Notes under the pieces: generated by a model
Seen by the model: only the letters and a program-made list of their open reading frames with translations
Told to the model about the DNA's origin: nothing
The model's database searches: none
Source of the DNA: Cytauxzoon felis
Taxonomy: Eukaryota; Apicomplexa; Aconoidasida; Piroplasmida; Theileriidae
Direction: 5' to 3'
Length of the DNA: 47,373 bases
Assembly: GCA_020283715.1 (NCBI GenBank)
Contig: JAIQCW010000077.1
Span: forward strand, 1 to 47,373
Position numbers and translations under genes: made by a program
Shown here: one piece after another, positions 3 through 47,373 of the stretch
Layout: each line of letters begins with the position of its first letter
Position numbering within the stretch: position 1 is the first letter of the stretch

Positions 3-1472
3 AATAATTTTAATATTACACATTTATTTAATCTATGCTATGATAATAATTTTATTGGATTCAAATCTTTTCAACATAATTTTATTATACATTTACCCAA
101 TAAAATCATTACATTATTCTATTTCCTATTCAATACTAAATCAAATAATAAAATATATCAATCCAGAAATCATAACCATTTCATCAATTGGGGATCTATC
201 ATTAATAAAAATTTTATAACATACTCATACCAAACATATTCCAACTCTCCACTCGAAGTGCAATCCAACTCTCCTTCCACTCGCCGTGGAGACTCTCCAC
301 CTGAGGTTACAACCTCGCGTTCTCCTGCAGAGAGCTCTTCCAATTATCTATCTCTAAAGAGTAAAGCCACTCCCAGAGATCGTGGCGAAGATGGGGTAGT
401 GGGGGAATGTGGGGATAAAAAACACTATAAATTTCCACCTGAGGTTACCTCCACCGTTGATCTTGCAGAGAGCTCTTCACCACTAGGCGTGGAGCCTTCT
501 CCACTTGAGGTCGGTCCTGCCGTCAGCTCTCCCAATTACCTATCCCTGAAGGGTAGAGCCACTCCCGGAGATCGTGGCGAAGTATCCGAGACGATCCATG
601 GGAGTCGAGGCGAGTTAAATAGAGAAGCCTCCACGGCGAGTGGAAAAGAGAGTAGGATTGGACCTCAAGTGGAACCCGTAGCTGATCTCAGGGAAGCGAA
701 GGGGGAAGTAAATGAAGGATCTTTCTGCAAGACGACCTCAGGTTATATCCCTTGTGGAATGGAAAGTATTACAGGACCTCGAGTGGAACCCGAAAGTGAT
801 CTACGGGAGCTTGAGGGGGAAGTAAATAGAAGAGGCGCCACGCCTAGTGGAAAGGTAGAATATAGTGATGTAACCTCGACTGGAAAACGATTTATGAATA
901 GTGATGTTAAATCATTTGATGTATTATCTGATGATACGATACCATCAACGATGATACATTCTGAGAGTATACCTTGTTCATCTACATATACATCTATAAT
1001 GGATGCGATAAGGAGTGATTTGAGATCATTTGATATTGAAGATGAAGAGATAACATATACACAGCAATTATCATGGATGAGATTATATTCTTTATTACAT
1101 TTATTAAAATGTTCTCAATTATTAAATAATCTTGCAATTGATACATTTAATTCAATTGATTTATCACATATGAATATTACTAATTTTGATAATACAATTA
1201 AAAGTCAAAATACACCAAATTTTATTGGTATCAATAAAGTATTAAAATATGTACAAGAATTTATTGATTCATTAATAGATGTTGTAGCAGGTGAACGATA
1301 CAATTTAGAAATCTGCCCATCAGAACTCATGATCTGTAATTTTAATAATCCAAATCTTATTAATGAAATCAATAAATTCATCGCAGACGCTACCAAATTT
1401 GGTAACGTTATACCAACTTATCATGGACATAATAATAATGATCAATATGATATACTCACACTACTCAAATGA
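3..1472 (+). CDS. Unknown protein, 5' partial, with in-frame mosaic element
   Basis: The reading frame is open from the first bases of the window to the TGA at 1470-1472, so the gene begins upstream; the GTG at 258 is not a credible start. Residues encoded by about 3-240 are Asn/Ile/Phe-rich host-type sequence. Positions about 242-900 encode a double mosaic element (two SNYLSLK-type D units, two LREAKGEVN/LRELEGEVN E units). From about 905 the host-type protein resumes, with an acidic stretch (SFDIEDEEITYTQQ) and a helical C-terminus (LLHLLKCSQLLNNLAID; VLKYVQEFIDSLIDVVAG). I recognise no family. The frame runs through both element-host boundaries without shift. Confidence is high that this is coding and low on function. 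Confidence 0.6.
   Translation, partial: NNFNITHLFNLCYDNNFIGFKSFQHNFIIHLPNKIITLFYFLFNTKSNNKIYQSRNHNHFINWGSIINKNFITYSYQTYSNSPLEVQSNSPSTRRGDSPPEVTTSRSPAESSSNYLSLKSKATPRDRGEDGVVGECGDKKHYKFPPEVTSTVDLAESSSPLGVEPSPLEVGPAVSSPNYLSLKGRATPGDRGEVSETIHGSRGELNREASTASGKESRIGPQVEPVADLREAKGEVNEGSFCKTTSGYIPCGMESITGPRVEPESDLRELEGEVNRRGATPSGKVEYSDVTSTGKRFMNSDVKSFDVLSDDTIPSTMIHSESIPCSSTYTSIMDAIRSDLRSFDIEDEEITYTQQLSWMRLYSLLHLLKCSQLLNNLAIDTFNSIDLSHMNITNFDNTIKSQNTPNFIGINKVLKYVQEFIDSLIDVVAGERYNLEICPSELMICNFNNPNLINEINKFIADATKFGNVIPTYHGHNNNDQYDILTLLK
242..900 (+). repeat. Exonic mosaic element, sense, two D units
   Basis: Order of units: A, B, A, D, K (GGGGATAAAAAACACTATAA), A, C, D, J (an E variant with CGAGACGATCCATGGGAG), B', A', E', F', A', E', B'. 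Stop-free in the host frame for about 220 codons. Confidence 0.85.
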
Positions 1473-1532
1473 AGTCATATAAAATATACACATACACATA
1501 CATATAATATCATATTATATAATCTATATTCC

Positions 1533-2075
1533 ACATGAAGTTCAATCCACTGAGGTCAGTCCTGCCTTCAGCTCTCCATTAGAGGTTACAGTCGTACTCT
1601 CTTTGCCATTGCATGGAGCTTCTTCCATTTACTTCCCCCTCCGCTTCCCTGAGATCAGCTACGGGTAGTCCACTTGAGGTCTCCACTCGAGGTCCAATCC
1701 AACTCTTCTTCCACTTCTTCATTATTACCTCTGAAATTTGAAGGAAATCCTGAATTTCTGGGGAAACTCATGAAGATTGTGGAATGACTATTAAATGAAT
1801 TCCTGATCTCAATACTTCATTGAAGAGGACATTGATGGTTTTATCTAGTATTATCATCCTCCCTTCATCCTAATTTATATTCATTGAGATGCCTTAAATT
1901 ATGTGGATTTCATCACTTTAGACGTATCTCGTTGAGATTATGAATTACCTCTAACGGAACCTGAAAGCGATCTACGGGAGCTGGAAGGGGAAGTAAATAG
2001 AGGAAGCTGTCTGCAAGACGACCTCGGGTAGAACGGCGAGTGGAAGGAGAGTTGGATAGGACCTCGGTGGTGTAG
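1533..2075. repeat. Intergenic mosaic element built around unit I
   Basis: The left arm (A, C, B variant CCATTGCATGG, E, A) runs to about 1730. A ~210-bp unit I (about 1735-1942, containing TTTCTGGGGAAACTCATGAA and ending in the small hairpin ATCTC-GTT-GAGAT) forms the middle. The right arm (A', E', F', A', B') is roughly the reverse complement of the left, so the block can fold as one long imperfect hairpin. It contains stop codons, unlike exonic copies. Confidence 0.8.
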
Positions 2076-2085
2076 ATTAAAATTT

Positions 2086-2933: not shown

Positions 2934-5900
2934 ATGATGATAAATAATGAAATTTTAAATGTAGTATTTTCTGCACAGGATGGTGACCTGAATGCCACCA
3001 AATTATTAAATAGTTTAGTTGATCTAGGATGTATAGATAATATATCTACTGATGAATTGAATAATAAATTATTATTATCATATGATTTATTATTATCATT
3101 AACTCATTTAGATAAAGATATAAATAATGATATGATTATAAATTATTTAAAGAATACTTTTGGTAATGTTAATAATGAAAAATATTTAGAATGTATAAAT
3201 ATATTAAGATTCTATGGTTATACTCTTTTAATTAAATTAATTGAAAATAATTGGAAATATATGACTATTGAATTGAAAGATCGTATTAAATATAATCTTG
3301 AATTACTTTTTACAGATGATTATATTGTTAATCCTACTATAATTTCTCAATATAATTCACTTGTATTACATAAACTTGCTCAACTCATATCCACCATTAT
3401 CCTCATCCACCATCCAAATAATTGGAATCAAATCCTCGATATTTCAATCCAATCTATCAATAAATTACTCAATTATTTTGAACATGAATACAATTCATCA
3501 AATATTAATACCAATATACCATACAAGGTACAATATAACTCAACTTCCACTAGGCATGGAGCCTCTCCACCTGAAGTTACAACCAGTGTTCCACTCGCCG
3601 TGGAGGCCTCTTCCAATTACCTCCCCGTAAACGGTAATGCCACTCCCGGAGATCGTGGCGATTTATACCCGGAAGAACAGGAAATGTCTACCCGTAAGAA
3701 CGTAGATGTTCAACCCCTAAGAACAGGAATTCTACCCGGAGGAACGGGAATTGTTAACTCGGAAGAACAGACATCTACAGTTGTCCTGCCGTCAGCTTCC
3801 TCAATTTACCTCCCCGTAAACGGTAATACCACTCCCGGAGATCGTGGCGGAAGTGAAGGTATGGATTGGACCTCGAGTGGACCTGGAAGCGATCTACGGG
3901 AGCTGGAAGGGGAAGTAAATAGAGGAGCTGTCTGCAAGACGACCTCAGGTGGAACGGCGAGTGGAAAGACATCGGATGGAAAGGAATTGATGGCTGATAA
4001 TGTAGGTGATATGATATTAATGGATATTGGTAATGTATATATACCATATCAATTATATAATGAGTTATTATTATTTTGTGGTTATTTGAGTGAATTATGT
4101 TCGAGTATAAAATTAATGAATAGGAGAGGTATAAATGTGATAAAATTATATATAAATGATATATTTTTTATTATAAATCGTATAATTTTTATGGATTTAT
4201 TTAGTAATGATAATAAATTTCTTATAAATTTAATTATGAATTTATCATTTATAATTGATGGTTATATATTTATTGAATTTAATTTAGATGATTTTCTTAT
4301 TAATAATATTAATTTATATAATAATTATGATATTATACAAATATTTCTTAATATTTCTAATAATATATCTGAAGATTCAAAGAATAATTTTATTTCTTTT
4401 AATTCTCCTACATTCACATCTTCAACCCTGGATAACAGAAGTGTGATACAGAATTCCAATAATCAATTCCCATCTTCAACCCTGGATAACAGAAATTTCA
4501 TACAATCTCTAGATAACACTAACTTCATACAATCTCCAATGAATTATAATCAAAAAACATCTAGATTTCTAATGAATGTATCAAGGTTATCAAGAATGAA
4601 TTATGAGAATATAAATGAATTAATACAAACAATAATGATATTGAGGACATTAATAGAAAAAAATTTATTAATATTAATGAAAATAACATCATTTAATATA
4701 TTAATTGATGAATTAATGAATTTAATAATACATCCATCATTAGAGATTACATTAACATCTATAAATGTAATTATATTATTATTAAAGAGAATGATTAAGA
4801 ATAATTATATTGATAAAATAATTGATGTTATAAATATAAAAAAATTTATATTAATTTTATATTTAAGATCATTAAAATTAGGTAATTTAAATTATCAATT
4901 GAAATCTAATGATAATTTCATTTCACAACAACAACAACAATCACAATCACAATTAGATATCGTCATTGATGACGTCATTGATGATAATATATTAATAGAT
5001 TTAGATAATAAATATTTAAATTTAATTATTACTACAACAATAAATAATAACATTACATTAAAACAATGGATAAAATTATTATTTAAATATGTAATTATAG
5101 ATAATGAATTATCTATTGGACAAATGAAATCATTTGATACTAGATTTTCATCATTAAGATCTGCTATACAAAATTGTTTATCTATTATATCAACATTAAA
5201 TGAATATTATATGAAAATTACATTAGAAACTATATATGAATTATTTAATACTATTAAAAATAATTTTATACAATCTACTTGTCATAAATGTAATATAAAA
5301 AATCTACATTGGACATGTATACAATACATACTCTTTGATTCCATATGCTTCATATTCGAATCTACCATACATAAACTCAAATTTATCTCCAATGATCATA
5401 AAACACCCAATTGGATGAAAATCTTACATAAACAACAACAAATACCTCCAATCGAGGTCCAATCCAACTCTCCTTCCACTCGGCGTGGTGCATCTTCCAC
5501 CGAGGTCCAATCCAACTCTTTTCCACTCGCCGTGGAGGCCTCTTCTAATTTGTTATCTCTAAAGAGTAAAGCCACTCCCGGAGATCGTGGCGATTTATAC
5601 CCGGAAGAACAGGAAATGTCTACCCGTAAGAACGTAGATGTTCAACCCCTAAGAACAGGAATTCTACCCGGAGTAACAAAAGATGTCTACCCGGAAGAAC
5701 AGACCTTGAATGTATTTAATGGACCTCAAGTGGAGACCTCAAGTGGACTACCCGTAGCTGATCTCAGGGAAGCGGAGGGACAACTAAATAGAAGAGGCAC
5801 CACGCCTAGTGGAAAGACCTCAGGTGGAACGACCTCAAGTGGAGAAGCTCCATGCAATGGAAAAGATATAACTTCGTGTGGAAGTATAGATGGCAATGAT

Positions 5901-8900
5901 TGGTATATATTTGGAATAGGTATATTATATGAGATATTGAGTATGTCGATGTATAGTGATCATGGTATGATATTAGAGATACGTCGTATGGATATGTTAT
6001 CATATAATTGTATAATATTAGTATATGATAGTGTTAATATATATAATATAATGGAATATATAATTAATTATATAATAAATAATGATGATATAATAATGAA
6101 TAGATCATCATTATATGCATTAGATAATATATGTAAATATAATATTAATAATATAATAGATTATATAGAAATATTTATTATAAAATTAAGAGATAAATTT
6201 ATTAATTGTAATAATAATAGATATAGAAATATATTATTAGAATCATTAATAATATTAATATCATATATAAATAATAATAATATTAAACGTATATTATTAT
6301 TAAATATAATACAACCATATTATAATGAATTATTAAATATAAATTTAATTATAAATAATTCTAATGATTTATTAAAATTTATATTGAATGATGATGTTAA
6401 TCATAAAAATTTATATAAATTATTAATTATATTAATATTAATAATAAAAAAAACCAACAACAACAATAATAAACATCCATTATATGAATTATTTAATAAA
6501 TTATTAATTGTGTTATTAAAATTATTTAAATGTATTGAATACATGTGGGAACCATTATTTTTTAAAGAAGATCAATTTATAAAATTAATATTAAGACCAG
6601 GTGAAGATGAATGGTTAATTTTAAATGGAAGATGTAGCGATGCATCCAATGATGCGTTGAATGATGCATTGAATGATGATAATGTTCTTACATCTAATGG
6701 TACTACAACTTCTGCATTGAATGCTTCGTCCAATGATGATAATTCAAGTACTCTACATTCTAATGACATCAATTCAACACATACATCCAATGACATCAAT
6801 TCAACACATGCATTGAATGCTACTAGTATAAAATATTATCAACATTTTATATTTATATTAAGACAACTTGTATTGAAATTTATAGGATTATTATTATCTT
6901 CATCATCACCTCCTCTTCCTCCATCTTCACCTTCACTTCCTCCTTCTTCCTCTGATGGTAATGATTTAATAAATAATTCGTTAATATTGCCATTGAAATG
7001 GACAACAATATCACATATATTACATATGATCAAATATACATTTATACCATCTATACATAACATCAACATGTATATTATCAACATTATCAATATCATTACA
7101 GAAAGAATTAGCTGTGAATGGAAATCATTAAATAAATTCAGATTATTAATCATCAATCATCAACATGATGATAAATTCATACAACTCTATTATCTCAAAG
7201 TATACGCCACAATCAATACAGGATTACAACTACTCACACTCATCAATCATATCATCAAACCCAATAATACACACACAAAGAAAATTAATACACACAATGT
7301 ACAATCTAACTCCACCGAGGTTACCACCACCGTAGGTCTTCCACTCGCCGTGGAGGCCTCTTCCAATTACCTATCTCTAAAGAGTAATGCCACTCCCGGA
7401 GATCGTGGCGAGATACCCGAGACGATCTATGGGAGTCGAGGCGAGTTAAATAGAGAAGCTGACGGCAGGAATGTAACCTCAAGTGGACTACCCGCAGCTG
7501 ATCTACGGGAAGCGGAGGGACAACTAAATAGAGAAGCTCCATGCAATGGAAGAAGAGCTGACGGCAGGACGACATCAGGTGGAACGGCGAGTGGAATGAC
7601 ATCAGATGCACTGGTGGATATGTATAATAATGATGGTAATATGATATCTGATGATGTAGATATGATGGATGATGATAGTAATATGTCATTAATTACATAT
7701 GATTTAATGAAATGTATATTTACATCATTATGTTCAGCTGTTTGTTGGCCACATTGTAAATGTATCTCTGAATCTTTAAGATTAATCAGATTATTCAATA
7801 ATCTCACACATAAAATACAAAATCTCAATCAACAATATATCACACTTCAAATCAATATCATACTCTTCCTTGTCAAACAAATCAATCAAAAAAGGTACGC
7901 TCACAACACATAGTATGACAATCAATCCAAACGAAGTTAATTCATCTGAAGTCCAATCCAATTCTCTTCGTCTTCCAGACAGCTTTCTACCTGAGGTTAC
8001 AACCTTCCCTTCCACTCGCCGTGGTGGCTCCTCCAATTACCTATCTCTAAAGAGTAGAGCCACTCCCAGAGATCGTGGCGGAAGTGATGAGGATGTAACC
8101 TCAAGTGGAACCCGCAGCTGATCTATGGGAAGCGGAGGGGGAGGTAAATAGAGAAGCTGTCTGCAAGACGACCTCAGGTGGAATGGCGAGTGGCAACGGC
8201 AGGATGGACCTCAGGTTAAGAAGACAACATTTAAGTATCAAGATATTCAATATATATCTATAGGTCATTTGATCCATTGAATTTGGATGTGGGTGGTAAT
8301 AGTATGTATAGTATGTATTGGTCATTGGGTAATGAGGGTAGTTATTTAAAAGAATTTGTAAATACAATTGTATCATGTTATGAATCACTTGTTAAATGTA
8401 CACCAAAATTAAATGAAGTTATAATTGATGATAATGTCAATATACAAAAACTATTACAATATACTCATATCATTAATGCTATACAAATCATCACACCATA
8501 TCTTAATGAACAAGAATGCCTACTATTCATCAAACATATCATACTTTCACAAAAAAATGAACCCAGACAACTACTCAAAACAATTATCGAAAATAAACTA
8601 CAAGTACGTTTATAATCATAACAACACTCCACTCGAGGTCCAATCCACCTCTTTTGGTCCTGCCGTCAGCTCTTCCAATTATCTATCCCTAAAGGGTGAT
8701 GCCACTCCCAGAGATCGTGGCGATGTCTACCCCTAAGAACAGGAAATCTACCCGGAGGAACAGAGTGTGTTAACCCGGAAGAACGTGATATAGTTAATCG
8801 ACCTCAAGTGGAGGTGTAATACCTGGAAGAGATCTACGGGAGCTGGAAGGGGAATTAAATAGAGAAGCTGTCTGCAAGACGAAGGAAAGGTGGATTGGCC

Positions 8901-9644
8901 TAAGGTGGAGAGTCTATTGGAAATATATGATATATTATTTCTGTATTTCAATTCATATATAATATTTATAGGGTACTGATTATAAAAAACAAGTACAATA
9001 TGATTCGGATATGATAATTGAACTTAAATCCGCTAAAGGTATGTTATAAAATGAATCTAACCACTTGTACCATTTACCACACTCACTCCACTTCCATCCC
9101 ACCTGAGGTCCAATCACTATCTTCTCCACCTCTTCTTCCCACTCGCCGTGGTGGCTCTCCTAATTACCTATCCCTGAAGGGTAATGCCACTCCCGGAGAT
9201 CGTGGCGGAGGCGAAGGTAGTGAGGATGTAACCTCAGGTGGAACCCGTAGCTGATCTCAGGGAAGCGAAGGGGGAAATAAATAGAAGAGCTCCATGCAAT
9301 GGAAGAAGAGCTGACGGCAGGACTAGACCTCAGGTGGAGAGTAGAGTAGGGTTGTAACCTCAGGTGCAGTGGACAACACATCAGTTATGATCTCTTTCGG
9401 ATGGAAGGTTGAGATTATGACATAGAAAATTAATTAGTGTATTAAATATTATTATATCGAGGTTGATTGTCTGACTGATGTGTACTGGTGATGTCTGTTG
9501 TGTATTGTTCATACACATTTTAATTTTATACTTAAGATTCCAATTTATTAATAATAATTTTTTATAGATATTGAGGTTATTGATTCAGATGAAGGTGATG
9601 ATTGTATATTTGGTAGTGATATATTGTATTTGTTATTAGAATAG
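2934..9644 (+). CDS. Exportin/importin-beta-like large protein, 4 exons
   Basis: Exons inferred from splice signals and phase: 2934-7894, 8264-8603, 8972-9038 and 9568-9644 (5445 nt, 1814 codons plus stop). Donors are GTACGC, GTACGT and GTATGT; acceptors are CTATAG, TTATAG and TTATAG. Phases join cleanly, and the protein ends with the acidic tail DIEVIDSDEGDD...LLLE. The N-terminus is all-helical, and around residue 140-165 it reads HKLAQLISTIILIHHPNNW, resembling the Xpo1-type segment of exportins (KLAQ..., then a Trp-containing helix). The rest is Asn/Ile-rich helical sequence, consistent with HEAT repeats, and a CxxC...WTC cluster lies at about 775-790. Exportins carry RNA or protein cargo through nuclear pores with Ran-GTP. 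Exon 1 carries three in-frame mosaic elements and each of the three introns carries one more. Family assignment is tentative; the gene model is well supported. Confidence 0.6.
3530..3992 (+). repeat. Exonic mosaic element 1 of the exportin-like gene
   Basis: Units B variant, A, B, D (CCGTAAACGG type), five tandem G units (CCCGGAAGAAC family), C, D, A', E', F', A', B'. Sense and stop-free over about 155 codons. The flanking host sequence is Asn-rich. Confidence 0.88.
5440..5900 (+). repeat. Exonic mosaic element 2 of the exportin-like gene
   Basis: Units A, B, A, B, D (CTCTAAAGAG), five G units almost identical to those of element 1, two A', E', B', A', A', B variant (CCATGCAATGG). In frame with the host on both sides. 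The shared G run suggests that copies 1 and 2 are related by recent duplication or conversion. Confidence 0.88.
7298..7612 (+). repeat. Exonic mosaic element 3 of the exportin-like gene
   Basis: Units A, B, D, J (E variant), C', A', E', B variant, C', A', B'. In frame and stop-free over about 105 codons. The host N-flank is Thr/His/Asn-rich and the C-flank is Asp-rich. Confidence 0.88.
7930..8222 (+). repeat. Intronic mosaic element (exportin-like intron 1)
   Basis: Lies between donor 7895 and acceptor AG 8262-8263, leaving about 40 nt on each side. Units A, F-like, A, B, D, A', E', F', A', B', C', A'. Confidence 0.85.
8626..8912 (+). repeat. Intronic mosaic element (exportin-like intron 2)
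   Basis: Lies between donor 8604 and acceptor AG 8970-8971. Units A, C, D (CCCTAAAGGG), G units, A', E', F', A'. Contains stops in the host frame. Confidence 0.85.
9078..9375 (+). repeat. Intronic mosaic element (exportin-like intron 3)
   Basis: Lies inside the 529-nt intron 9039-9567. Units A, B, D (CCCTGAAGGG), A', E', B variant (CCATGCAATGG), C', A'. About 190 nt of AT-rich sequence separates it from the acceptor. Confidence 0.85.
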
Positions 9645-9741: not shown

Positions 9742-11514
9742 ATGAATTTAACAAATTGCAGTTATTGTGGTTCTCAGCAGATTGAGAGTTATAAACATTT
9801 GGGTGAGTTAGTATGTCAGGATTGTGGAGCTGTCTTGCAAGAGAATGCAGTATTAGAGGATGTACAATATTCTGAAACACCAGCAGGAAATACTACATTG
9901 GTAGGTCAATTTATACCAACAGCTGGTAGTCGTCGTTTAACATTAGCATATGGTTCATGGCAGAGTCGTGAACAGGTTATAAAGCGTGGTTATCATAATA
10001 TACAACGTATCGCAGATTATTTACATTTATCATCGGAGCATGTGGAATCAGCACAGCGTATATATTTATTAGCGGTACAGCGTAATTTTACAATGGGTAG
10101 GAATAATTTACATGTAGCATCATGTTGTTTATATACAATTTGTAGACGTGAAAAAACGCCACATTTATTAATTGATTTCTCAGATATTTTACAGACACCT
10201 GTTAAAACTATAGGACAAATTTTTATGAAATTAGTACGTATGCTACATATTTCTGTACCTAATGTTGATCCATCTATATTTTTTGAACGTTTTGCAACAC
10301 AATTACATTTAAAAAATAATATACAAAAGATTATAACAACTGGTGTACGTATAATACAAGCAATGAATCGTGATTGGTTATGTACTGGTAGAAGACCAAC
10401 TGGATTATGTGGCGCTGCATTAATAGTAGCCGCTAGACTACATGATATTTCATTATCAGCAGAAGCTGTTGCATCTGTTGTACGTATATCACATCCAACT
10501 ATTATGAAAAGATTATCAGAATTTAAAGAAACATGTACTGCACAATTAAAAGCATCAGAATTCGATAAAGTCGATCTTGATACTCTACCTAATGTTAAAT
10601 TACCACCATGTTTAATCTCCAAGTTGAAAAAACAATACGATATAGATACATTATCAGATTTATCCAAAGATAATACAACATATGAATCATCGTCAAATTC
10701 ACCAAGATACTATTCTACACATACACCAACCTTCTCAGAATTACACATCAATGATGATCATAACCTACAATCTACACCCAATAATGGACATATAACACCA
10801 CCTGAGGTTACAACCTTGTCTTCCACTAGCCGTGGAGGCTCTTCTAATTACCTCCCCGTAAACGGTATAGCCACTCCCAGAGATCGTGGCGGAAGTGTAA
10901 GTAGTGATGTAACCTCAAGTGGAAGTGGACTACCCGAGAGCGATCTACGGGAGCTTGAGGGGGAACTAAATAGAGGAGCTGTCTGCAAGACGACCTCTGG
11001 TGGAATGACCTCAGGTGAAAAAGATGGTATGACTGACACATTGGGTAGTATAATTGATGGTAGGTTATTAGATTTGGGTTTACCATCGGAGGTGTTATGT
11101 AAGGATGAGCCATCTGCTGATGATATAAAGGGAATAGCATCGAGTATAATGGAGAAGTTTGCAGAGGTTACGGTTGAAGAGGAAGAAGTGTTATCATCAG
11201 ATGATGAAGAAGATTTAATGGTTTTTAATGAGATGATATTAAAGGAGGATGATAGGAAGATGAAAATGATATTATGGGATGAAATTACAAAAGATGTTAT
11301 GCCTAAAGTATGGCGTAGGCAAATGGAAAGAAAGAGACAAGAAAGTGAACAAAATGTCAAAAAAAGAAAATATTGTAGAAGAGTTTATACTGAATATCCT
11401 GAAGCACAAGATGCAGCAGAATCCGCCAGAATGGCACTAGAAAGACATGCAAAAGGTTTCATTCATCATATCAATAACGATGTATTCAATACACTACTCT
11501 CACAAAGCACATGA
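9742..11514 (+). CDS. BRF1: TFIIIB subunit BRF1 (TFIIB-related factor)
   Basis: This 590-residue protein is the Pol III initiation factor that bridges TFIIIC, TBP and RNA polymerase III at tRNA and 5S genes. Evidence: an N-terminal zinc ribbon (Cys6, Cys9, Cys25, Cys28 in CSYCG...CQDCG), followed by two cyclin-fold repeats (about 70-270), including the GRRPTGLCGAALIVAARLH stretch typical of the second repeat. An acidic C-terminal segment (about 470-530, EEEVLSSDDEEDLMVFNEMI then WRRQMERKRQ) matches the TBP-binding homology region of BRF1. An in-frame mosaic element occupies about residues 352-428, in the linker between the cyclin folds and the C-terminal homology block, a position likely to tolerate it. 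Single exon. The start lies 97 bp after the exportin-like stop, on the same strand. Confidence 0.92.
   Translation: MNLTNCSYCGSQQIESYKHLGELVCQDCGAVLQENAVLEDVQYSETPAGNTTLVGQFIPTAGSRRLTLAYGSWQSREQVIKRGYHNIQRIADYLHLSSEHVESAQRIYLLAVQRNFTMGRNNLHVASCCLYTICRREKTPHLLIDFSDILQTPVKTIGQIFMKLVRMLHISVPNVDPSIFFERFATQLHLKNNIQKIITTGVRIIQAMNRDWLCTGRRPTGLCGAALIVAARLHDISLSAEAVASVVRISHPTIMKRLSEFKETCTAQLKASEFDKVDLDTLPNVKLPPCLISKLKKQYDIDTLSDLSKDNTTYESSSNSPRYYSTHTPTFSELHINDDHNLQSTPNNGHITPPEVTTLSSTSRGGSSNYLPVNGIATPRDRGGSVSSDVTSSGSGLPESDLRELEGELNRGAVCKTTSGGMTSGEKDGMTDTLGSIIDGRLLDLGLPSEVLCKDEPSADDIKGIASSIMEKFAEVTVEEEEVLSSDDEEDLMVFNEMILKEDDRKMKMILWDEITKDVMPKVWRRQMERKRQESEQNVKKRKYCRRVYTEYPEAQDAAESARMALERHAKGFIHHINNDVFNTLLSQST
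10797..11025 (+). repeat. Exonic mosaic element in BRF1
   Basis: Units A, B variant (CCACTAGCCGTGG), D (CCGTAAACGG type), A', E', F', A', A'. Sense and in frame; adds about 76 residues to the linker before the C-terminal TBP-binding region. Confidence 0.88.
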
Positions 11515-11596: not shown

Positions 11597-11945
11597 GAAG
11601 TATAATCCACCTTATTTCCACCTGAGGTTACCTTCACCTTTTCCACTAGGCGTGGAGCCTCCTCTATTTACTTCCCCCTTTGCTTCCCTGAGATCAGCTG
11701 CGGGTCCTCCACTTGAGGTCTGTTAACTATATCACGTTCCTCCGGGTAGACACTCTTTGTTCTTCCGAGTAGAATTCCTGTTCTTAGGGGTTATATATTT
11801 ACGTTCTTCCGGGTTAACACTTTCTGTTCTTCCTCATTAACTTCGCCACGATCTCCGGGAGTGGCATTACTCTTTAGAGATAGGTAATTGGAGGAGGCCT
11901 CCACGGCGAGTGGAACGGAGGTGGATTGGACCTCGAGTGGAGTGT
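11597..11945 (-). repeat. Intergenic mosaic element
   Basis: Lies between the convergent ends of BRF1 and a FAINT gene. Units A, B, E, A, four G units in reverse, D in reverse (CTCTTTAGAG), B', A'. The orientation by unit D is minus. Confidence 0.8.
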
Positions 11946-25388: not shown

Positions 25389-25397
25389 TATTTTCAA

Positions 25398-32540: not shown

Positions 32541-32542
32541 GA

Positions 32543-32613
32543 GCGAGGAAAATATATCATGTGGAATTTTCCTCGCAAAAAATTTTCTCCGCCTTTGGCG
32601 GAGGTTTTTTTTT
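32543..32613 (+). terminator. Two consecutive hairpins followed by T9
   Basis: Hairpin 1: GCGAGGAAAAT (32543-32553) pairs exactly with ATTTTCCTCGC (32566-32576). Hairpin 2: CTCCGCC-TTT-GGCGGAG (32587-32603), then nine T (32605-32613). It resembles a Pol III stop or an intrinsic terminator; role unproven. Confidence 0.35.
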
Positions 32614-32664
32614 CTCCCTTCAGCTCCCATAGATCGCTTACGGGTATATGTTATTATGTTAATG

Positions 32665-33671: not shown

Positions 33672-33767
33672 CTTAAATAGTCATATAATAAACTCATTAT
33701 TTCCAAATAACTCAAATATAACATATCTATCATAAAATTCATCGAATATTACAGTGCATCTCTCATT

Positions 33768-34040
33768 CCACCTGAGGTCCAATCCAACTCATCTTCCACT
33801 CGCCTCCACTTGAGGTCCTGCCGTCAGCTCTTCTATTTACCTCCCCCTTCGCTTCCCTGAGATCAGCTGCGGGTATTCCACTTCCACTTGAGGTCAAGTA
33901 CTACTCTTCATTCCACCCGAGGTTACATCCATACCTTCTCATCGCCACGATCTCTGGGAGTGGCATTACTCTTTAGAGATAGGTAAATAGAAGAGCTGAC
34001 GGCAGGACGAAGATAAGGTTGTAACCTCAGGTGGAGAACG
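33768..34040 (-). repeat. Mosaic element, intergenic or 5' intronic
   Basis: Units A, B, A, C, E, A, A, A, D reversed (CTCTTTAGAG), C', A'. It sits between the Tpr-like and FAINT-like genes; it may lie in an unresolved first intron. Confidence 0.8.
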
Positions 34041-37117: not shown

Positions 37118-37590
37118 TCTACACTCGAGGTTACATACACCTTTCTTCGTCTTGCAGACAGCTCTTCTATTTACTTCCCCTTCCAGCTCCCGTAGATCGC
37201 TTCCAGGTTCCACTTGAGGTCTAGTACTAATCTCGATGAGATAAGGATAAAGTGACGGAATCCATGTTTGGACGGATATCTCAATGGATATAACTGAGAA
37301 TCTAATGAAATTCAGTAAATTCAATACAATCATCAAATTCCTCTTCAATGAAGTATTGAAATAGAAATACATCCAATAGTCATTGAGTAATCTTCATATA
37401 TTTCCCCAGAAATTCAGGATTTCCTTGAAATTTTGGGGTTATAAATGAAGTAGTGAAATTAGTGATTGGACCTCAAGTGGTACCCGTAGCTGATCTCTGG
37501 GAAGCGGAGGGATAACTAAATAGAGGAGGCCACCACGGCGAGTGAAAGACCTCGGTGGATTGTAACCTCGAGTGGAGTTGCAAGACTAAA
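37118..37590. repeat. Mosaic element with inverted unit I
   Basis: Units A, F, E, A, unit I reversed (about 37222-37447), A', E', B', A', A'. Possibly in the last UAP56 intron, otherwise intergenic. Confidence 0.78.
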
Positions 37591-38154: not shown

Positions 38155-38300
38155 TTTCCAGTTGAGGTGCGATACACATTCACCTCTTCATTCCACTCGC
38201 CACTCCACACAAGGTCTTTCCACTCGCCGTGGTGGCTCTTCTATTTATTCATCTCTAAAGAGTATAGCCACTCCCAGAGATCGTGGCGATTGACCATTGT
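38155..38300 (+). repeat. Intergenic mosaic element, half unit set
   Basis: Units A variant, B fragment, A variant, B, D (sense) and then an abrupt end with no right arm; a truncated copy. Confidence 0.75.
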
Positions 38301-38587: not shown

Positions 38588-38805
38588 ACACCTCTTCCAC
38601 TTGAGGTTACAACCTTGTGTTGCCACTCGCCGTGGTGGCCCCATATTTGGCTCCCCCTCCGCTTACCTGAGGTCAGCTACGGGTACCACTTGAGGTTACA
38701 TCACTACCTCCGCCACGATCTCCGGGAGTGGCTTTACTCTTTAGAGATGGGTAATTAGAAGAGCCACCACGGCGAGTGGAAAGAGACCTCATGTAGAATA
38801 TCTCA
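38588..38805 (-). repeat. Intergenic mosaic element
   Basis: Units A, B, E, A, D reversed, B', A'. A compact, complete inverted arrangement with B outside and E and D inside. Confidence 0.8.
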
Positions 38806-39132: not shown

Positions 39133-40287
39133 ATGAGGGGTATTTTAACTATTGTCTTTATATTTTATGGACATATGATTTGTAGAGGAGATAATAATAG
39201 AGTATTATTAGATATTGACAATTGTAATGATGGTAATATTCATTGTATTGTTAATGAGAAAAAGAGAGATGAATATATTAAACATAGTCCTTGTGGTAAA
39301 TTATTAGCATATAAAGTAGTTGATGGTAATAAAGTAATATGGGAGAGTCCAGATATAAATATAGGATGTTTATATGCAACAGTATATAGTAAAAATGGTA
39401 TAAAAAAATTATTACATTTATTAATACAACAATCTAATAATATAAATAAATCATATTATTATGAAAATATTGAGATACAAAATGATGATTTAGTAGCTGG
39501 TATATCATATAATTGGAAATGTATAGAATTAAAAGAATATTATGAAAAAGTTTATAGATTAATATATGAAGGTACATTAGATATAGATCAACCAGGTGAT
39601 TTAGTAGAATTTCATTCAACAAATATAAATAATGGTAATTCTATAATTGAATTAGAACCATATTTAATATATCCAATTGATAAAATAACACAAGGTAATA
39701 TAAATATATGGGAAAGTAATGATAATACAGAATGTATAGAAATAAAAATTTTATATAGAGGTCATATAAAATTTTTATTATCATTAAATATTTTACAACC
39801 AAATTCTGATGAATTTTTATATTATAAATTTATTAATAATTATTGGATTAAAATTATTAAAGAAGAATTTGATGATAAATATTTTAAAATTTTAAATGAA
39901 TGTAAAATTAATATTACATCAACATTATATCAATTAGATCATTGTATAATTAAAAAACATAATCCATTTGGTATACCAGCCATAATATTTACACCAGATG
40001 TTAATATACATGCAACACAAGTATTAGATGACTTCAATCTTATATGGAGTGATGATGATTTCAATGAATATATACTCGATTGTGTATTGTATTATAATAA
40101 TGATATACCTGAACTAGTACAAATATACGTTACTAATGGATCCAATCAAAGATATATCTTCTATGAATGTAATAATGGACATTGGATCAATGCCAATGAA
40201 GATGAATTCTACGCCAAACTAGGAAATCTAGAAACTGGAAATAATTTCATCCATACACATTATGATCCGATAAACATAAACGAATAA
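39133..40287 (+). CDS. Secreted FAINT-domain protein
   Basis: 384 residues. The signal peptide is MRGILTIVFIFYGHMICRG. Three FAINT-type modules follow, each with the W-anchored strand: GNKVIWESPDINIGCLYATV, GNINIWESNDNTECIEIKI and DFNLIWSDDDFNEYILDCV, each ending in a helix with an EEFxxK-like motif (KEEFDDKYFKIL; EDEFYAKL). The architecture and module count match 15556-16683, including the C-terminal W...EFY.KL segment, so the two are probably paralogues. Very AT-rich and Asn-rich; no mosaic element. Probably exported or secreted; specific role unknown. Confidence 0.8.
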   Translation: MRGILTIVFIFYGHMICRGDNNRVLLDIDNCNDGNIHCIVNEKKRDEYIKHSPCGKLLAYKVVDGNKVIWESPDINIGCLYATVYSKNGIKKLLHLLIQQSNNINKSYYYENIEIQNDDLVAGISYNWKCIELKEYYEKVYRLIYEGTLDIDQPGDLVEFHSTNINNGNSIIELEPYLIYPIDKITQGNINIWESNDNTECIEIKILYRGHIKFLLSLNILQPNSDEFLYYKFINNYWIKIIKEEFDDKYFKILNECKINITSTLYQLDHCIIKKHNPFGIPAIIFTPDVNIHATQVLDDFNLIWSDDDFNEYILDCVLYYNNDIPELVQIYVTNGSNQRYIFYECNNGHWINANEDEFYAKLGNLETGNNFIHTHYDPININE

Positions 40288-40299
40288 AGCAAAAATTAA

Positions 40300-40680
40300 A
40301 GTCTAACTGAAGTTACAACCTTATCTTTGTCCTGCCGTCAGCTTCTCCACCGAGGTCCAATCCAACTCTTCTTCCACTCGCCGTGGTGGCTCTCCTAATT
40401 ATTCATCTCTAAAGAGTATAGCCACTCCCGGAGATCGTGGCGGTAGAGAAGGTAGTGATGAAGGTTGTGATGGATCATCCATTATGGGAATGATGGAAGA
40501 TGGTGCTAAGGATGTGTTGGATCTAACCTCGAGTGGACTACCTGGAAGCGATCCACGGGAGCTGGAAGAAGAGTTGGATTGGACCTCGGTGGAGAAGCTG
40601 TCTGCAAGACGAAGGAAGGATGAAGAAGATAGAGGTTGTAACCTCAGGTTGAGGAGTTGTATAACCTTCGGTGGAGTTGT
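40300..40680 (+). repeat. Intergenic mosaic element with unit H
   Basis: Units A, C, A, B, D (sense), H (GATGGATCATCCATTATGGG, encoding IMGMMEDGAKDVL), A', E', A', F', A'. Confidence 0.82.
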
Positions 40681-41079: not shown

Positions 41080-41955
41080 ATGCATAAATTTTCGATATTC
41101 ATCATTGCGTTATGTGAGTATGCCTGTATCGCAGCAAACAATAATGGAAGTTCTGATACTAAGGTAGACCTAGATATTTATTCTAGGAATAGTACAGATA
41201 AAGTTAATGTAACCATTAAAGAAGATGGTAATATGATAACATATAAGATTGAACCAAAAGGTAAATATAAAGTTGGTAGATTTACAGATGGTGAGAAGGT
41301 AATTTATGAATTAACTCAGCAAGATACCTATAAGTATCTAGAGGTTAAATGCCTTAAATCTACAGATGAGCCAATGTTGGTATCCTTGTGCTATTCACAA
41401 GGCATTTGTCGTTCAGAATTACATTATTATTTTCAACACCCTGATGGTTGGAGTGTGATAGATAAAGGTTTTGCTGATTTCCTTGTAGAAAAGATGAAAG
41501 CTTGTAAATTAATTAAAAAGGATACTATATTTCATGAGTATAATCAACACATTGGAGAATTGGATAAACAGAGGGTTGAAGTTGATTTAACGAAGGAGGA
41601 AGTTCCATCCGGTATTACAAGGAAGGATTGTAAAGAAGGTGATACAGATTCATGTTTATATACTGTTGATGAAAAGACTGTCATCTCCAAAATTGTAATT
41701 GGATCCAATGAAGTTTGGAATAAAGGTGATGATTTATATGGATGTTATAAGATGAAAGTATATTACCTACCCCAAGATGAGAAGTTGCTTATATTAGCAA
41801 TAAAGGGTCCTGCAGGTATGAGATTGACCTTTTGCGGAAAGACATCCGAGGGTAGTTATGGTAAAATTAAAAAGGAAGAATTTGATAATAAAGCCAAAAA
41901 CATACAAATGAATCCACTAAATGTAGATTTTAAAGAATGTGTTTGTTCAAATTGA
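41080..41955 (+). CDS. Secreted FAINT-domain protein
   Basis: 291 residues with a signal peptide (HKFSIFIIALCEYACIA). Two FAINT modules: about 27-140 (KVDLDIYSRNSTDKVNVTI; YKIEPKGKYKVGRFTDGEKV; PMLVSLCYSQG; DGWSVI) and about 165-285 (TRKDCKEGDTDSCLYTVDEK; GSNEVWNKGDDLYGCYKMKV; LLILAIKGPAG; EEFDNKAK). The terminal CVCSN is Cys-rich. Codon use is less extremely AT-biased than in 39133-40287. No transmembrane helix after the signal peptide. The ATG follows a short AT-rich leader. Probably secreted. Confidence 0.8.
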   Translation: MHKFSIFIIALCEYACIAANNNGSSDTKVDLDIYSRNSTDKVNVTIKEDGNMITYKIEPKGKYKVGRFTDGEKVIYELTQQDTYKYLEVKCLKSTDEPMLVSLCYSQGICRSELHYYFQHPDGWSVIDKGFADFLVEKMKACKLIKKDTIFHEYNQHIGELDKQRVEVDLTKEEVPSGITRKDCKEGDTDSCLYTVDEKTVISKIVIGSNEVWNKGDDLYGCYKMKVYYLPQDEKLLILAIKGPAGMRLTFCGKTSEGSYGKIKKEEFDNKAKNIQMNPLNVDFKECVCSN

Positions 41956-42644: not shown

Positions 42645-42995
42645 CCCATCTTCTCCACTTGAGGTTACAACACTATTCTCCATACTATCTTCACCTCCAA
42701 CCTTTCTTTGGTCTTGCAGACAGCTTCCTTTATTTACCTCTCCCTTCGCTTCCCTGATATCAGCTACGGGTGGTCCACTTGAGGTCACATTCAACACATC
42801 CTTAGCACCATCTTCCATCATTCCCATAATGGATGATCCATCACAACCTTCATCACTACCTTCACTGCCACGATCTCCGGGAGTGGCTCTACTCTTTAGA
42901 GATAGATAATTGGAAGAGCTGACGGCAGGACTGACCTCAGGTGGAGAGGCTCCACGGCGAGTGGAAGAAGAGTTAGATTGGACTTCGAGTGGAAT
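42645..42995 (-). repeat. Intergenic mosaic element with units K and H
   Basis: Preceded by a K-like tract (GTGTTTTTTATCCC). Units A, F, E, A, H, D reversed (CTCTTTAGAG), C', A', B', A'. Confidence 0.82.
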
Positions 42996-43035: not shown

Positions 43036-46000
43036 TTAGATTGAGTTTAGTAATTGTGGTGTGAGTTTATTATAGATTTTTTTTTCTTGTGTGAGTTTGA
43101 TAGATTCTTGATGTAATTGTTGTACGAGTAGTATAGATGATTGTAGATTTTTGAATGGTGTTAGATCGAGTGTAGATTTTTGTAGTGATTGTATACCAAT
43201 ATTTGTTTTAATATTATTATTATTAATAATAATAAATTTATTTAAAAATTTAATGGTAATTTATTATTATCCCATTTAATATATAATTCATTATTAATAA
43301 TAAATTCAATACCACCAATATTTTTAATAAATTTTTAAATTATTTAATGTATTATCATAATTTTTTATTATACCTTCATTTATACCAATAGACATTATAT
43401 AAGATATATTTATATTCAAATCATTATTATTTAATAATTTATATACATAATATAATAATGGATCCAATCTTTTACCCCTATAATTCAATGTCCTCTTATA
43501 TAATCTATATAATGTATTCAATGATACTATACCTTCATCCATCTCATATATAGCCTCACCTTCATCATCATTCTCTATCACTCTAACACTCCGAACACCC
43601 AATGTTATATTCCTACCATCAGATTCTACACCTGAAGTCGTTCCTTTGTCTTGCAGACGGCTCTCCACCTGAGGTCTAGTCCTGCCGTCAGCTCTCTTAT
43701 TTATTTCCCCCTCCGCTTCCCTGAGATCAGCTGCGGGTTCTCCACTTGAGGTTACATCCAACATATCCTTAGCACCATCTTCCATCATTCCCATGATGGA
43801 TGATCCATCACTACCTTCATCACTACCTTCTCTACCGCCACGATCTCCGGGAGTGGCTCTACTCTTTAGAGATAGGTAATTGGAAGAGCTGTCTGCAAGA
43901 CCAACGGTGGTTGTAACCTCAGGTGGATGGGATGTATTGATATTATTAGGATGTGCGATATGTTCGAGTCGATTTTTGGATAATTTGAGTAGATTGATGG
44001 TGACATGTAATCTATCTTTAGTAATGGTATGATTATTATTAGATTTATATATAATAAGTGGTGGTTTAATTATAATATTTAACATTTTAAATAATTGTTT
44101 AATACCAATTAATATATTACCAGTTGGTATATTATTAAATACAGTTTCAACTTTATCTAATAATTTACATGTATCTAATAATTTTAATGATTCATTCAAC
44201 ATATTTAATAATATTTCCACTATATTCTCATCATATTCTAATATCATAATCAATATATTCGCTATATCCCTACTCGTTACATTACCAGATCTTATCTTCA
44301 TATCAAATCCACTAAACCTATCCAATATCATATGTTCTTCCTTTCCACTCGCCGTTCCACTTGAGGTCCTTCCTTTGTCTTGCAGACGGCTTTCCTTATT
44401 TACTTCCCCCTCCGCTTCCCGTAGATCAGCTCCGGGTAATCCACCCCCACTTGAGGTTACATCCAACACATCCTTAGCACCATCTTCCATCATTCCCATG
44501 ATGGATGATCCATCACTACCCTCTTCACTACCTTCACCGCCACGATCTCCGGGAGTGGCATTACCGTTTACGGGGAGGTAATTGGAAGAGGGCTCCACGC
44601 CGAGTGGAACACTGGTTGTAACCTCAAGTGGAGAGCTGACGGCAGGATGTGGAGAATTGAAGGTAACCTCAGGTGGGGCATTATAGTGTTTTTTACCCCC
44701 ACTATCCCCCATAATAATATCATTATCATTTACATTGAATATTGGTATATTTTTGATATCATCATCGACTATTAGATTGGATGGATTCTTTAATATATTT
44801 AATAATGGTAATATATTATTATAATTATTAGGTAATATCCATGATCTTATAGATAAACATTTCAATAAACCATTAAATTCATTACTATTCAATAATGATT
44901 GTGATGCCATTAATGGCTCTATAATCTCACATACAACATCTGTACCACCCAATTTCTTCATCTCTATCGCCTCCATTATATTCTCATACAATTCATTCAT
45001 TACTAAATCATACTCATCCGAATAATTCCTACTCAACTCTAACATATACCTCTTCATCAATCTTACAAATTTAACAGAGGTATCATCTACACCACCTGAG
45101 GTCTTTCCACTCGAAGTTCCACCTGAGGTTACATTCCTGCCGTCAGCTCTTCTATTTACTTCCCCCTCAAGCTCCCGTAGATCGCTCTCGGGTCTTCCAC
45201 TTGAGGTCTCCACTTGAGGTCCACTACTACCTTCTCTACCGCCACGATCTCCGGGAGTGGCTCTACTCTTTAGAGATAGGTAATTGGAAGAGCTGACGGC
45301 AGGACTGACCTCAGGTGGAGAGCCACCACGGCGAGTGGGATCAATGGTTGTAACCTCAGGTGGAGGACGAAAAGAGTTGGATTGGACTTCGGGTGGATGT
45401 GTTGTGAGTAGATGTTCGAGTCGATTTTTGACATCATTGGTATTTTTTCCGAGTAGTTCTGCGATATAGCTGTATGGTTCTTGTAGGAATGAGAATTTTT
45501 GATAGTATTTGAGTAGTGCATTATCATCATCTGGGTTCCATTGTTTATATGTGTATTGATTTTTATTTATATTATGTTCTTTGATGACATCATATATTGT
45601 CCAATCATCATAGATTAGCATATCTTTTAATATTGTATAATTATTATAATTTGTTAACATTGGTATTATATTATCTTTACTACATACATTTAATATACCT
45701 TTTGTATTCATTGATGATTTATTAAAAAATAATTCTATTGGTAAAAATAAATTTCCCCCACTTTCGTCATCATCCCCATCCCCACAAATTAGCCAATTAT
45801 CGAAGAATTTTTCGAGTATATTGATACAGAATTCTCCAATCCATCTCCAGTATGCATTTTGCCAAATACATTTATCATTGATGATATTATAGAAGATGTA
45901 GAAATATTTTAAATCATACATGATAGGTATAGGTATTAATTCTAGATGACTAATTAGAAGATCATTTAAATCATTGGAATTATTACGATAATCTGATAAT

Positions 46001-46931
46001 AGTATTAAACAATTATATACTATTCTACCACAATATAAAATATCATTTGAAGTAGAGGGAGAAGTGGTGGGAGATGTGGAGGAAGAAGGTGCATTAGTAT
46101 TTTTTGTAGAATAGACATTATTAGCATCACATGTAACAGTTTTCAAATTATAATCACCACCACTACCCTCATCACTTCCATCATCATCACTTCCTTCATC
46201 ATAAATATCCATAGTATTAAATCTTGAATTACGTTGTATATTAAAAGTTATAGGGCCTAATATTTTAATAATTTTATGTAATGTATGTATAGATGATAAT
46301 GCAAATGTAAATAAATTAATATCATGTGATGTATATTTAAAATTTTTTAATATCCAATAAATAGCTAATTTTATATTATTAGATAAATAAGTAGATAATA
46401 ATTGACGACAAATAGTATTTACATGTAAATTATTATTACATAACATATATATTAATATTAAATCACTATAAAAACTACGTAATGATGATATACCACTTAT
46501 ACTTGTTAATTTTCTCATTGATTCTTTACGTATTAAATTCCATAAATAATTACATGTTACTTTAGCCATTATATTATTATTACCTATATATCTTCTTAAT
46601 GCTAATAATACAAATGCTTCAGGTATAGGATCTAAATTTTTATTTTTCCTTTTTTCATTCTCTATACTATATAAACAACGATAATATGTTATTATCCATG
46701 TATGTATATCCATCAATATATCTATATCATATTCTTCATTATAACGCTCTTTAACATCCCTCATTATATCACTATAACATAATGATAATAATAAACCCAA
46801 TTCATAATATAATACAGGCTCCTCACTTGACCAATAACAATGCTCAAAATCTGAATCTATACCTATCAATGAATGCAACTCCAATTGCAAACCCTTCACA
46901 TCCGATATAACACATGAATCACCAGATGAAC
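43036..46931 (-). CDS. Large unknown protein, 5' partial, SANT-like segment, three elements
   Basis: The main frame is 46931-43324. The minus-strand ORF has no ATG near its start (the apparent start at 46899 is GTG); the frame runs up to an acceptor (TAATAG) at 46932-46933, so earlier exons lie beyond the window, across an intron holding another element. At the 3' end the frame breaks in an A-run at about 43336 and again in a T-run near 43255; the host-like protein continues (IGGIEFIINNELYIKWDNN; then QSLQKSTLDLTPFKNLQSS) to a TAA at 43036-43038. The protein is helical and Asn-rich, and a Myb/SANT-like stretch (WNPDDDNALLKYYQKF ... YIAELLGKNTNDVKNRLEHL) lies near the middle. Some fork-protection (Timeless/Tof1) proteins have a similar layout, but I cannot assign a family. 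Three mosaic elements are in frame and sense. Confidence 0.55.
43628..43930 (-). repeat. Exonic mosaic element 3 of the large unknown gene
   Basis: Minus-strand order: A, F, D (CTCTAAAGAG), H, A', E', C', A', F', A'. In frame and stop-free. Confidence 0.87.
44338..44710 (-). repeat. Exonic mosaic element 2 of the large unknown gene
   Basis: Minus-strand order: K (GGTAAAAAACACTATAA), A, C, A, B, D (CCGTAAACGG), H, A', E', F', A', B'. In frame; adds about 120 residues. Confidence 0.87.
45090..45410 (-). repeat. Exonic mosaic element 1 of the large unknown gene
   Basis: Minus-strand order: A, A, B, A, C, D (CTCTAAAGAG), A', A', E', C', A', A'. In frame, 7 bp after the SANT-like segment's last codons plus a short linker. 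Confidence 0.87.
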
Positions 46932-46967
46932 CTATTATTATCAGTTATAACAAAAATTTATTGAAAT

Positions 46968-47373
46968 ATACTACACCCGAAGTCCAGTACTACTCTTGTT
47001 CCACTCGCCGTGGTGGCTCTTCCATTTACTTCCCCCTACGCTTCCCTGAGATCAGCTGCGGGTTCCACTTGAGGTTACATCCAACACATCCTTAGCACCA
47101 TCTTCCATCATTCCCATGATGGATGATCCATCACTACCTTCTACTCTACCTCCAAAATTTGAAGGAATTCCATCATTTCTGGGGAAACTACTGAAGATTA
47201 CTCAATGACTATTGAATGAATTTCTAATGTCAATACTTCATTCAAAAGGACTACGTCGATTCTATCGAGTATACTGAACATCACTTCATTCCAATTAATA
47301 TTCATTGAGATATCCCAACAAACATGAATTACGTCACTTTATTCTTATCTCATCGAGATTAGTACTAGACCTC
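46968..47373 (-). repeat. Intronic mosaic element with H and unit I, cut by the window end
   Basis: Units A, B, E, A, H, then unit I (about 47150-47362, ending ATCTC-ATC-GAGAT) and the start of another A'. It lies upstream of the acceptor at 46932, within the intron of the large unknown gene. Confidence 0.78.

Follow-up and report, generated by a model that had tools for sequence, protein, structure and literature searches.

Elements at the locus

The window analysed here, the whole stretch of 47,373 bp, is contig C43 of the Cytauxzoon felis assembly (8,623,106 bases in 181 contigs). It carries genes of nuclear type, including BRF1, an ATP13A-like P-type ATPase and several FAINT genes, with introns assigned by heuristic, and it is crowded with short, GC-rich palindromic elements that are the subject of this report. 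The BRF1 gene (9742-11514) has its top matches in Theileria and Babesia, and phylogenetic analysis of BRF1 and ATP13A gave a position near the base of Theileria with weak support (61 and 49). One ATP13A-like metagenome protein, P0125, ranked among the Babesia proteins.

We defined a block as a run of repeated GC-rich 12-mers and described its content by cassette tokens of our own; 'intronic' refers throughout to a simple splice and open reading frame (ORF) heuristic, by which some assignments may be wrong. The window contains 36 such runs covering 9,255 of its 47,373 bases (20%), with a GC content of 0.509 within the runs versus 0.275 elsewhere, as expected from the original prediction, made from the letters alone, of dense GC-rich mosaic blocks filling about a fifth of the DNA. 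Five Markov-2 shuffles of the window each yielded zero blocks. Block statistics were taken from a sample of 245,373 bp (the window, C9:1-130000, C8:1-58000 and C17:30001-40000), which gave 180 blocks with a median of 234 bp. They cover 20, 17, 19 and 6% of the window, C9, C8 and C17 stretches, respectively, at one element per 1.2-1.3 kb.

Nor is the family confined to this locus, the outcome that was to be checked by copy number. The core loop TCCCNKAGATC occurs in 7,128 exact copies in the 8.6-Mb genome, compared with 7 for the reversed pattern used as control, and the P core at up to two mismatches in 2,726 copies (control 0). Density is higher in the sample, with 311 loops in 245 kb, than in the genome as a whole (7,128 in 8.62 Mb), and the block estimate was therefore scaled down by proportion (180 x 7,128/311) to about 4,000; by extrapolation, about 1 Mb of the 8.6-Mb genome may belong to the family. 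The exact 21-base core has zero matches in the GTDB and IMG/VR collections, the element peptide matched none of 512 candidate proteins (0.55-1.75 x 590 aa) at E 0.001, Rfam at gathering thresholds reported no family in the window, and our search of the open-licence PMC literature found no description of these elements. A transposable element survey of 64 apicomplexan genomes, in the portion of its text available, lists none in C. felis and concludes that class II transposons seem to be lacking in Apicomplexa (PMC9141347). The relatives compared below belong to other genera and Cytauxzoon is represented by one assembly; within that range the family is apparently restricted to one lineage. It is well supported that these are massively amplified modular palindromic elements of the C. 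felis nuclear genome.

Ordered slots, interchangeable cassettes and hairpins

A common grammar, (A b)+ C d P, centre, A' q' C' (b' A')+, underlies the blocks. The elements are imperfect inverted repeats whose slots keep an almost constant order and are filled by interchangeable cassettes, mostly mini-hairpins. Of 132 P blocks, 125 keep the sequence C, d, P; the next token after q' is C' or b' in 162 of 163 cases, and P comes after q' once in 180 blocks. Inverted repeats about the centre were present in all four blocks examined for them, in keeping with the original prediction. The same prediction held that no two blocks have the same order; this nearly holds for the cassettes, whose strings are unlike in 176 of 180 blocks, but not for the slots.

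P and q cassettes have hairpin form, with a loop of 11 nt. Of 311 copies of TCCCNKAGATC, 293 are flanked by base triplets that pair without mismatch, in seven stem types: CAC/GTG (129), GCT/AGC (108), AGC/GCT (31), GAT/ATC (16), AAC/GTT (5), AGT/ACT (2) and GAC/GTC (2). Among the 42 distinct 19-mers, 88.1% of cells are paired versus 54.5% in shuffles, and the covariation score is 0.952 versus 0.325 (0 of 500 shuffles for each measure); slid structures score at most 0.306. When located by their stems, within 4 mismatches, 106 of 113 P loops conform to TCCCNNAGATC, as do 103 of 109 q1, 28 of 32 q2 and 16 of 17 q5 loops. The d slot is a 4-bp hairpin with several stems and pairs without mismatch in 122 of 131. 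Conserved loops and complementarily varying stems are common to the P, q and d hairpins. Four folds of three chosen blocks gave z values of -2.9 to -6.3, and RNA wobble as a test of strand yielded too few cases (GT 6 versus AC 10; 2 versus 4). Pairing of left and right b cassettes was rejected, the two being the same in 19 elements versus 21.9 expected (n = 92).

The elements of the window are listed below, with the strand where one is assigned.

248-878, plus: double element, in frame in the ORF 3-1469
1550-1768: half element with F centre
1965-2070: half element q2' C' b4' A' b1'
3544-3970, plus: element in frame in a 1,684-codon ORF
5452-5862, plus: element in frame in the 1,684-codon ORF
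7310-7599, plus: element in frame in the 1,684-codon ORF
7948-8216, plus: element, P core on plus; intronic by heuristic
8626-8884, plus: element, P core on plus; intronic by heuristic
9099-9366, plus: element, P core on plus
10798-11017, plus: in-frame element of BRF1, missing in 8 relatives
11615-11943, minus: element with E centre, P core on minus
16772-17040, plus: element, P core on plus with changed loop
18312-18486, minus: in-frame element of the ATP13A-like P-type ATPase, missing in 7 relatives
19030-19358, minus: second in-frame element of the ATP13A-like ATPase
21907-22129: element with q5 replacing d P; intronic by heuristic
22536-22760, plus: element, P core on plus; intronic by heuristic
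23207-23418, minus: element, P core on minus, antisense to its gene; intronic by heuristic
24016-24228, minus: element, P core on minus
24828-24998: left half with F centre; outer inverted repeats extend to 24749
25177-25312: right half; outer inverted repeats extend to 25400
29241-29413, plus: element, strong foldback (DNA z -6.3), P core on plus
30012-30216, minus: element, P core on minus
30840-31115, minus: element, P core on minus; intronic by heuristic
32121-32639, plus: long element with q4, two q1 and trailing q2; end set by token scan
33764-34037, minus: element, P core on minus
34774-34907, plus: left-arm element (P, no q)
37122-37222: half element (q2')
37401-37578: half element (q1') with F centre
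38184-38291, plus: left-arm element
38593-38784, minus: element, P core on minus
40329-40649, plus: element with G centre
42648-42993, minus: element with G centre
43646-43927, minus: element in frame in a 1,206-codon ORF
44337-44676, minus: element in frame in the 1,206-codon ORF
45092-45395, minus: element in frame in the 1,206-codon ORF
46974-47189: half element with G and F centres

The halves at 1550-1768 and 1965-2070 are probably one element split by the F centre, and those at 24828-24998 and 25177-25312 appear to belong to one element as well. At the latter (24749-25400) the inverted repeats reach ~80 bp beyond the A motifs, so some elements have further outer modules. The half element at 46974-47189 probably continues to or beyond the end of the window.

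Elements inside genes keep one reading frame

Blocks were found in exons, in introns (by heuristic) and elsewhere, as had been predicted. We looked for blocks flanked on both sides of one strand by at least 60 open host codons. There were 38 such block-strand cases, and 33 of these are open through the block in the host frame; the other five comprise two antisense readings of exonic blocks and three blocks that are intronic by the heuristic. The in-frame exonic blocks, 33 of 180, are spread over 25 ORFs. They are open, have a length that is a multiple of three and, with few exceptions, share their orientation and codon phase: the exonic P core is sense and in phase 2 in 33 of 34 instances, q is antisense and in phase 0 in 36 of 38, and E is always sense (46:0). 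One exonic block, C9:44223-44586, is read in the opposite direction. P orientation is 28:1 in exons versus 23:19 in introns (Fisher p 1e-4), the 58 blocks called intronic consisting of 23 with P sense, 19 with P antisense and 16 without P. The P-q spacing keeps a single frame in 26 of 27 exonic blocks versus 32/25/19 over the three frames outside exons (Fisher 2e-7). Among 94 non-exonic P blocks the exonic-type frame is open in 30 and each other frame in at most 5, and F centres and q5 were found outside exons only. The earlier statement that no frame in the blocks resembles a transposase is borne out, but the blocks do hold an open frame, in one codon phase, that is used in exons.

At position 10 of the P core, GGA (Gly) and AGA (Arg) stand at 30:5 in exons versus 46:54 elsewhere in the 245 kb, a hint of selection at the amino-acid level or of separate sublineages. 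The other P changes showed no exon-specific codon-position bias (third position in 6 of 11 exonic versus 12 of 27 outside).

Alignment with homologues placed the inserts in variable or unaligned parts of the host proteins. The BRF1 insert is absent from 8 aligned relatives and the ATP13A inserts from 7, which agrees with the absence at orthologous sites that mobility would predict. Their sites are a linker and N-domain segments that vary in length; in these alignments, host positions near an indel amount to only 19-23%. At the second ATPase site the linkers of the Theileria proteins are themselves long. Five additional comparisons, made with solved structures and covering two neighbouring PARN-like ORFs, a CAF1B-like ORF, a Yju2/Saf4-like ORF and one GTPase, put the block between aligned parts, where the relative has ~4 to 43 residues. 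The Yju2/Saf4-like alignment extends a few residues into the block; in the GTPase, a 248-residue block separates the P-loop and TTRGINV stretches, at which PH1320 has four residues. The AlphaFold model of BRF1 has a mean pLDDT of 54.9, with ~25 in the insert and mostly 70-94 in the cyclin repeats. The low value, as expected without homologues, lends weak support to a predicted disorder of the insert. In-frame insertion into host genes is well supported.

Two in-frame elements lie in the antigen cf76 (L031/L032, C114:6472-8778 and downstream), one of them in the C-terminal third, and the adjoining GTPase-like ORF has two more. Both published cf76 PCR primers (PMC3748084) have one exact match each in the genome, facing each other over 2,307 bp on C114, and the ORF between them, of 723 aa and 2,172 bp including the stop, has the published size for the genome isolate. 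These matches identify the genome as that of C. felis; a cytochrome b search to the same end gave no match. The second cf76 element contains a 33-bp tandem copy of (b5' A'), which we infer to be the '30 bp' tandem repeat that the accessible part of the publication reports in two copies for ten of 11 samples and in a single copy for the eleventh (PMC3748084). The same text names the C-terminal part of this vaccine candidate as the most seroreactive (PMC3748084). Judged by position rather than by fragment borders, that part should contain one element copy. Many C. felis ORFs, cf76 among them, have the element peptide in common, so that possible shared epitopes need to be allowed for in interpreting C. 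felis serology.

The exonic copies could instead be introner-like or exitron-like and be spliced out of the mRNA, as the 58 copies called intronic might suggest. We consider this highly improbable: splicing needs neither an open frame, nor a single codon phase, nor a multiple-of-three spacing, the inserts in the proteins compared lie in linkers, in variable loops or between aligned parts, and the cf76 coding sequence (CDS) is described, in the text available, as a single exon of 2,172 bp (PMC3748084). Assembly artefact can be set aside as negligible. Repeats can mislead assemblers, but 176 of 180 cassette strings differ, in differing surroundings, frames are preserved, and the cf76 CDS including its elements has exactly the published 2,172 bp.

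A strand-asymmetric footprint in the flanking DNA

Host DNA beside the elements has a GC skew of about -0.35 on the left and about +0.35 on the right, fading by ~300 bp, with an AT skew of opposite sign and ~0.1. The skew jump is positive at 94.4% of the 180 blocks versus 45% of 12,795 control positions, its mean being 0.597 versus -0.016. On the strand running outward (5' to 3' from the element), A falls from.361 to.315 and C from.137 to.100, while G rises from.133 to.199 and T from.370 to.386. The footprint is present for genes on both strands, and the jump grows with element length (rho 0.42). It is strongest at synonymous sites. Exonic third positions have C.20 and G.05 on the 5' side, C.02 and G.21 on the 3' side, and C.06 and G.08 far away, and four-fold site skew is -0.78, +0.83 and -0.29, respectively. 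The expected sign was observed on the 5' side of 29 of 33 exonic blocks, two of the four exceptions being fragments of 66-68 bp, and on the 3' side of all 33. Residues of BRF1 and ATP13A that align with orthologues around three blocks show 17C:7G on the 5' side and 0C:39G on the 3' side. A narrow query of the open-licence PMC literature found no description of such a footprint.

After removal of the elements, 57 of 66 upward jumps of at least 0.9 lie at the former junctions, as against 0 of 37 downward jumps; at a threshold of 0.7 the figures are 99 of 142 and 0 of 109. These counts bear on the proposal that elements inserted at skew jumps older than themselves. About 5% of control positions do reach J >=0.59, and 43 of the 142 jumps at 0.7 lie away from junctions. 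The junctions, however, make up only 10.9% of the element-free sequence and hold 57 of the 66 strongest jumps, and pre-existing strong sites would therefore have to be almost fully occupied; the greater strength of the jump at synonymous sites within genes and its growth with element length also argue against this order of events, which we regard as very unlikely.

Excess of G and T on the outward strand is the sign seen at replication origins and at divergent transcription. The elements might accordingly be functional host elements under selection, either dense replication initiation sites or bidirectional promoters, with the skew as an origin or transcription start site (TSS) signature; conserved loops with compensating stems would fit such a role. 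Against it stand the density of one element per 1.2-1.3 kb in the sample, conserved enzyme genes included, a skew that reaches only ~300 bp, and the absence from the compared related genes, which argues against an essential function. A host function is, on these grounds, improbable.

Termini, mobility and the search for an enzyme

TTCCACYYGAGGT-like inverted termini are present at both sides of the elements in 125 pairs. Flank repeats of at least 4 bp, which would mark a target-site duplication, were found in 21 of 125 pairs versus 23.6 expected from a swapped-flank control, duplications of 2-3 bp not being resolvable by this comparison. The enzyme search was limited to five families, Y1_Tnp, rve, DDE_3, Cas12f1-like_TNB and RVT_1; among these the genome had no match to Y1_Tnp (PF01797), rve, DDE_3 or Cas12f1-like_TNB, other transposase families not having been searched. 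RVT_1 matched one ORF only, which from its motifs we take to be telomerase-like.

These data allow a comparison with ordinary non-autonomous foldback or miniature inverted-repeat transposable element (MITE)-like transposons with TTCCACYYGAGGT as terminal inverted repeat, whose transposase was missed and whose grammar arose by later recombination. Clear inverted termini, high copy number and dispersal, low divergence (P 1.3-1.5%, q1 2.5-2.8%) and conserved hairpin loops that an enzyme could read speak for such an origin. The flank repeats do not exceed expectation, the five families searched gave nothing beyond the telomerase-like ORF, the GC-rich, mosaic, exon-dwelling elements are unlike typical MITEs, and the flanking asymmetry is not predicted. 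We consider this origin rather unlikely. Of the original prediction of a non-autonomous mobile family, the dispersed inverted-repeat mosaic is supported; on the side of mobility, no target duplication above the control and no empty site in the sample was detected.

Outward synthesis from hairpins as a proposed explanation

The footprint is what outward DNA synthesis, or exposure of the outward strand, would leave. The explanation we prefer, for which we see the balance as about even, is that the elements are non-autonomous modular palindromes that are translated where exonic and whose hairpins repeatedly provoke outward error-prone synthesis. Exonic copies would be translated as mostly disordered peptide inserts and would persist only at protein sites able to accommodate them. 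The hairpins would stall forks or be cut, so that outward synthesis would recur at each copy; an error-prone polymerase repeatedly making new DNA outward from each copy would produce the footprint. Template switching and ectopic conversion among thousands of copies would shuffle the cassettes, maintain pairing within the stems and now and then place a copy at a new site. Template switching is described, in the part of the study available, as homogenising short inverted repeats, coding DNA included (PMC8604942). The conservation of the loops suggests in addition a factor that would recognise the folded hairpin. Polymerase, recognising factor and mobility are all postulates of this mechanism.

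More tentatively, the elements may be a transposase-free form of selfish DNA, arrays of swappable hairpins that spread via replication or break repair, each a permanent site of outward error-prone synthesis that leaves a mirror-image mutational gradient over ~300 bp of host DNA, codons included. If so, each copy would be a local mutator of its host gene, and a translated peptide would be shared by perhaps hundreds of otherwise unrelated proteins.

Several results weigh against outward synthesis from mobile, translated hairpins. An origin, bidirectional transcription or polymerase error would account equally well for the footprint's sign, and, as given above, 43 of 142 jumps at 0.7 lie away from junctions. 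Orthologue-aligned BRF1 and ATP13A residues far from elements stand at 41C:104G, G3 thus already exceeding C3. A one-sided footprint of half elements was dropped, as it vanished once F-centre halves were separated. A recognising factor would explain better than plain fork stalling why the loops are more conserved than the stems. Selection, homogenisation of the arms or both could underlie the stem covariation; the left and right b cassettes are independent, and two of five covariation measures were no better than shuffles (both-side change 297/500, further pair types 500/500). The b slot is less clear than P, q and d, with a perfect 4-bp hairpin in 49 of 76 versus 17% in shuffles; the TGC-loop matches number 256, of which 108 have complementary arms (stems GTCT, CCAT, CTCT) and 148, mainly b5, do not. 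Mobility is inferred from dispersal and absence in other genera, with neither an insertion event nor, in the one assembly, a presence/absence polymorphism seen, and self-BLAST of joined flanks in the sample gave 0 hits spanning an empty site among 717. Apart from cf76, the in-frame status is read from DNA alone.

Comparison with known palindromic elements

With the C. felis family, in-frame palindromic elements gain a counterpart in a eukaryotic nuclear genome. The parallel with Rickettsia palindromic elements (RPEs), drawn in the original prediction, is supported: these are palindromes of ~150 bp that sit in frame within unrelated genes, where they encode a conserved peptide, according to the text at hand (PMC10969869). 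RPEs differ in being bacterial, with 44 integrations of ten families in R. conorii reported there (PMC10969869), whereas the C. felis elements are eukaryotic and nuclear, number ~4,000 blocks, are multi-cassette and occur in introns as well; as to kinship by sequence, the exact 21-base core is absent from GTDB genomes, RPEs not having been aligned directly. The second parallel, with REP/BIME sequences and their RAYT transposases, holds in part. Both are mosaics of hairpin units in alternating orientation (PMC2817692, in the section available), but the C. felis genome lacks a Y1 match (PF01797) and its elements are often intragenic rather than confined to extragenic DNA.

Yeast mitochondrial GC clusters (GC42) are likewise GC-rich palindromes in AT-rich DNA with many copies and merging and shuffling of units, and their flanking substitutions are read as a co-conversion tract (PMC4478555, as far as its available text goes). 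On the same partial text, GC42 elements are mitochondrial, 42 nt long and mostly intergenic, with a putative 2-nt target duplication and with conserved stems and variable loops (PMC4478555). In C. felis it is the core loops that are conserved and the stems that vary, and the elements are nuclear, have a median of 234 bp and a slot grammar, are frequent in exons and leave a directional, strand-specific footprint. MITE and foldback elements are similarly short, with inverted termini and no encoded enzyme, but the C. felis elements have no detected target duplication, are GC-rich and combine cassettes. Introner elements also occur as thousands of inverted-repeat elements within protist genes; the exonic C. 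felis copies are open and in frame, which speaks against their being spliced introns. The nearly fixed slot order, the covarying stems, the single codon phase and the flanking footprint go beyond the original prediction, and the flanking asymmetry makes hairpin-launched outward synthesis directly testable.

Possible remnants and the FAINT genes

Two stretches of the window resemble elements outside the called blocks. An intergenic stretch at 27780-28080 has degenerate GAACGAAGTGAAGG-like repeats beside a strong skew jump (27768), with no called element, and is possibly a decayed element. Within the FAINT gene at 12055-14220 (minus strand), positions 13030-13200 read ADIGEVEGDVIEEGTTSSG, which by eye is near the element peptide, with no called block; this is possibly a decayed exonic element. 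Four FAINT (DUF529) genes of the window are without a called in-frame element (12055-14220, 15556-16683, 39133-40287 and 41080-41955), and a FAINT gene on C9 (L011:1640-3271) does carry one.

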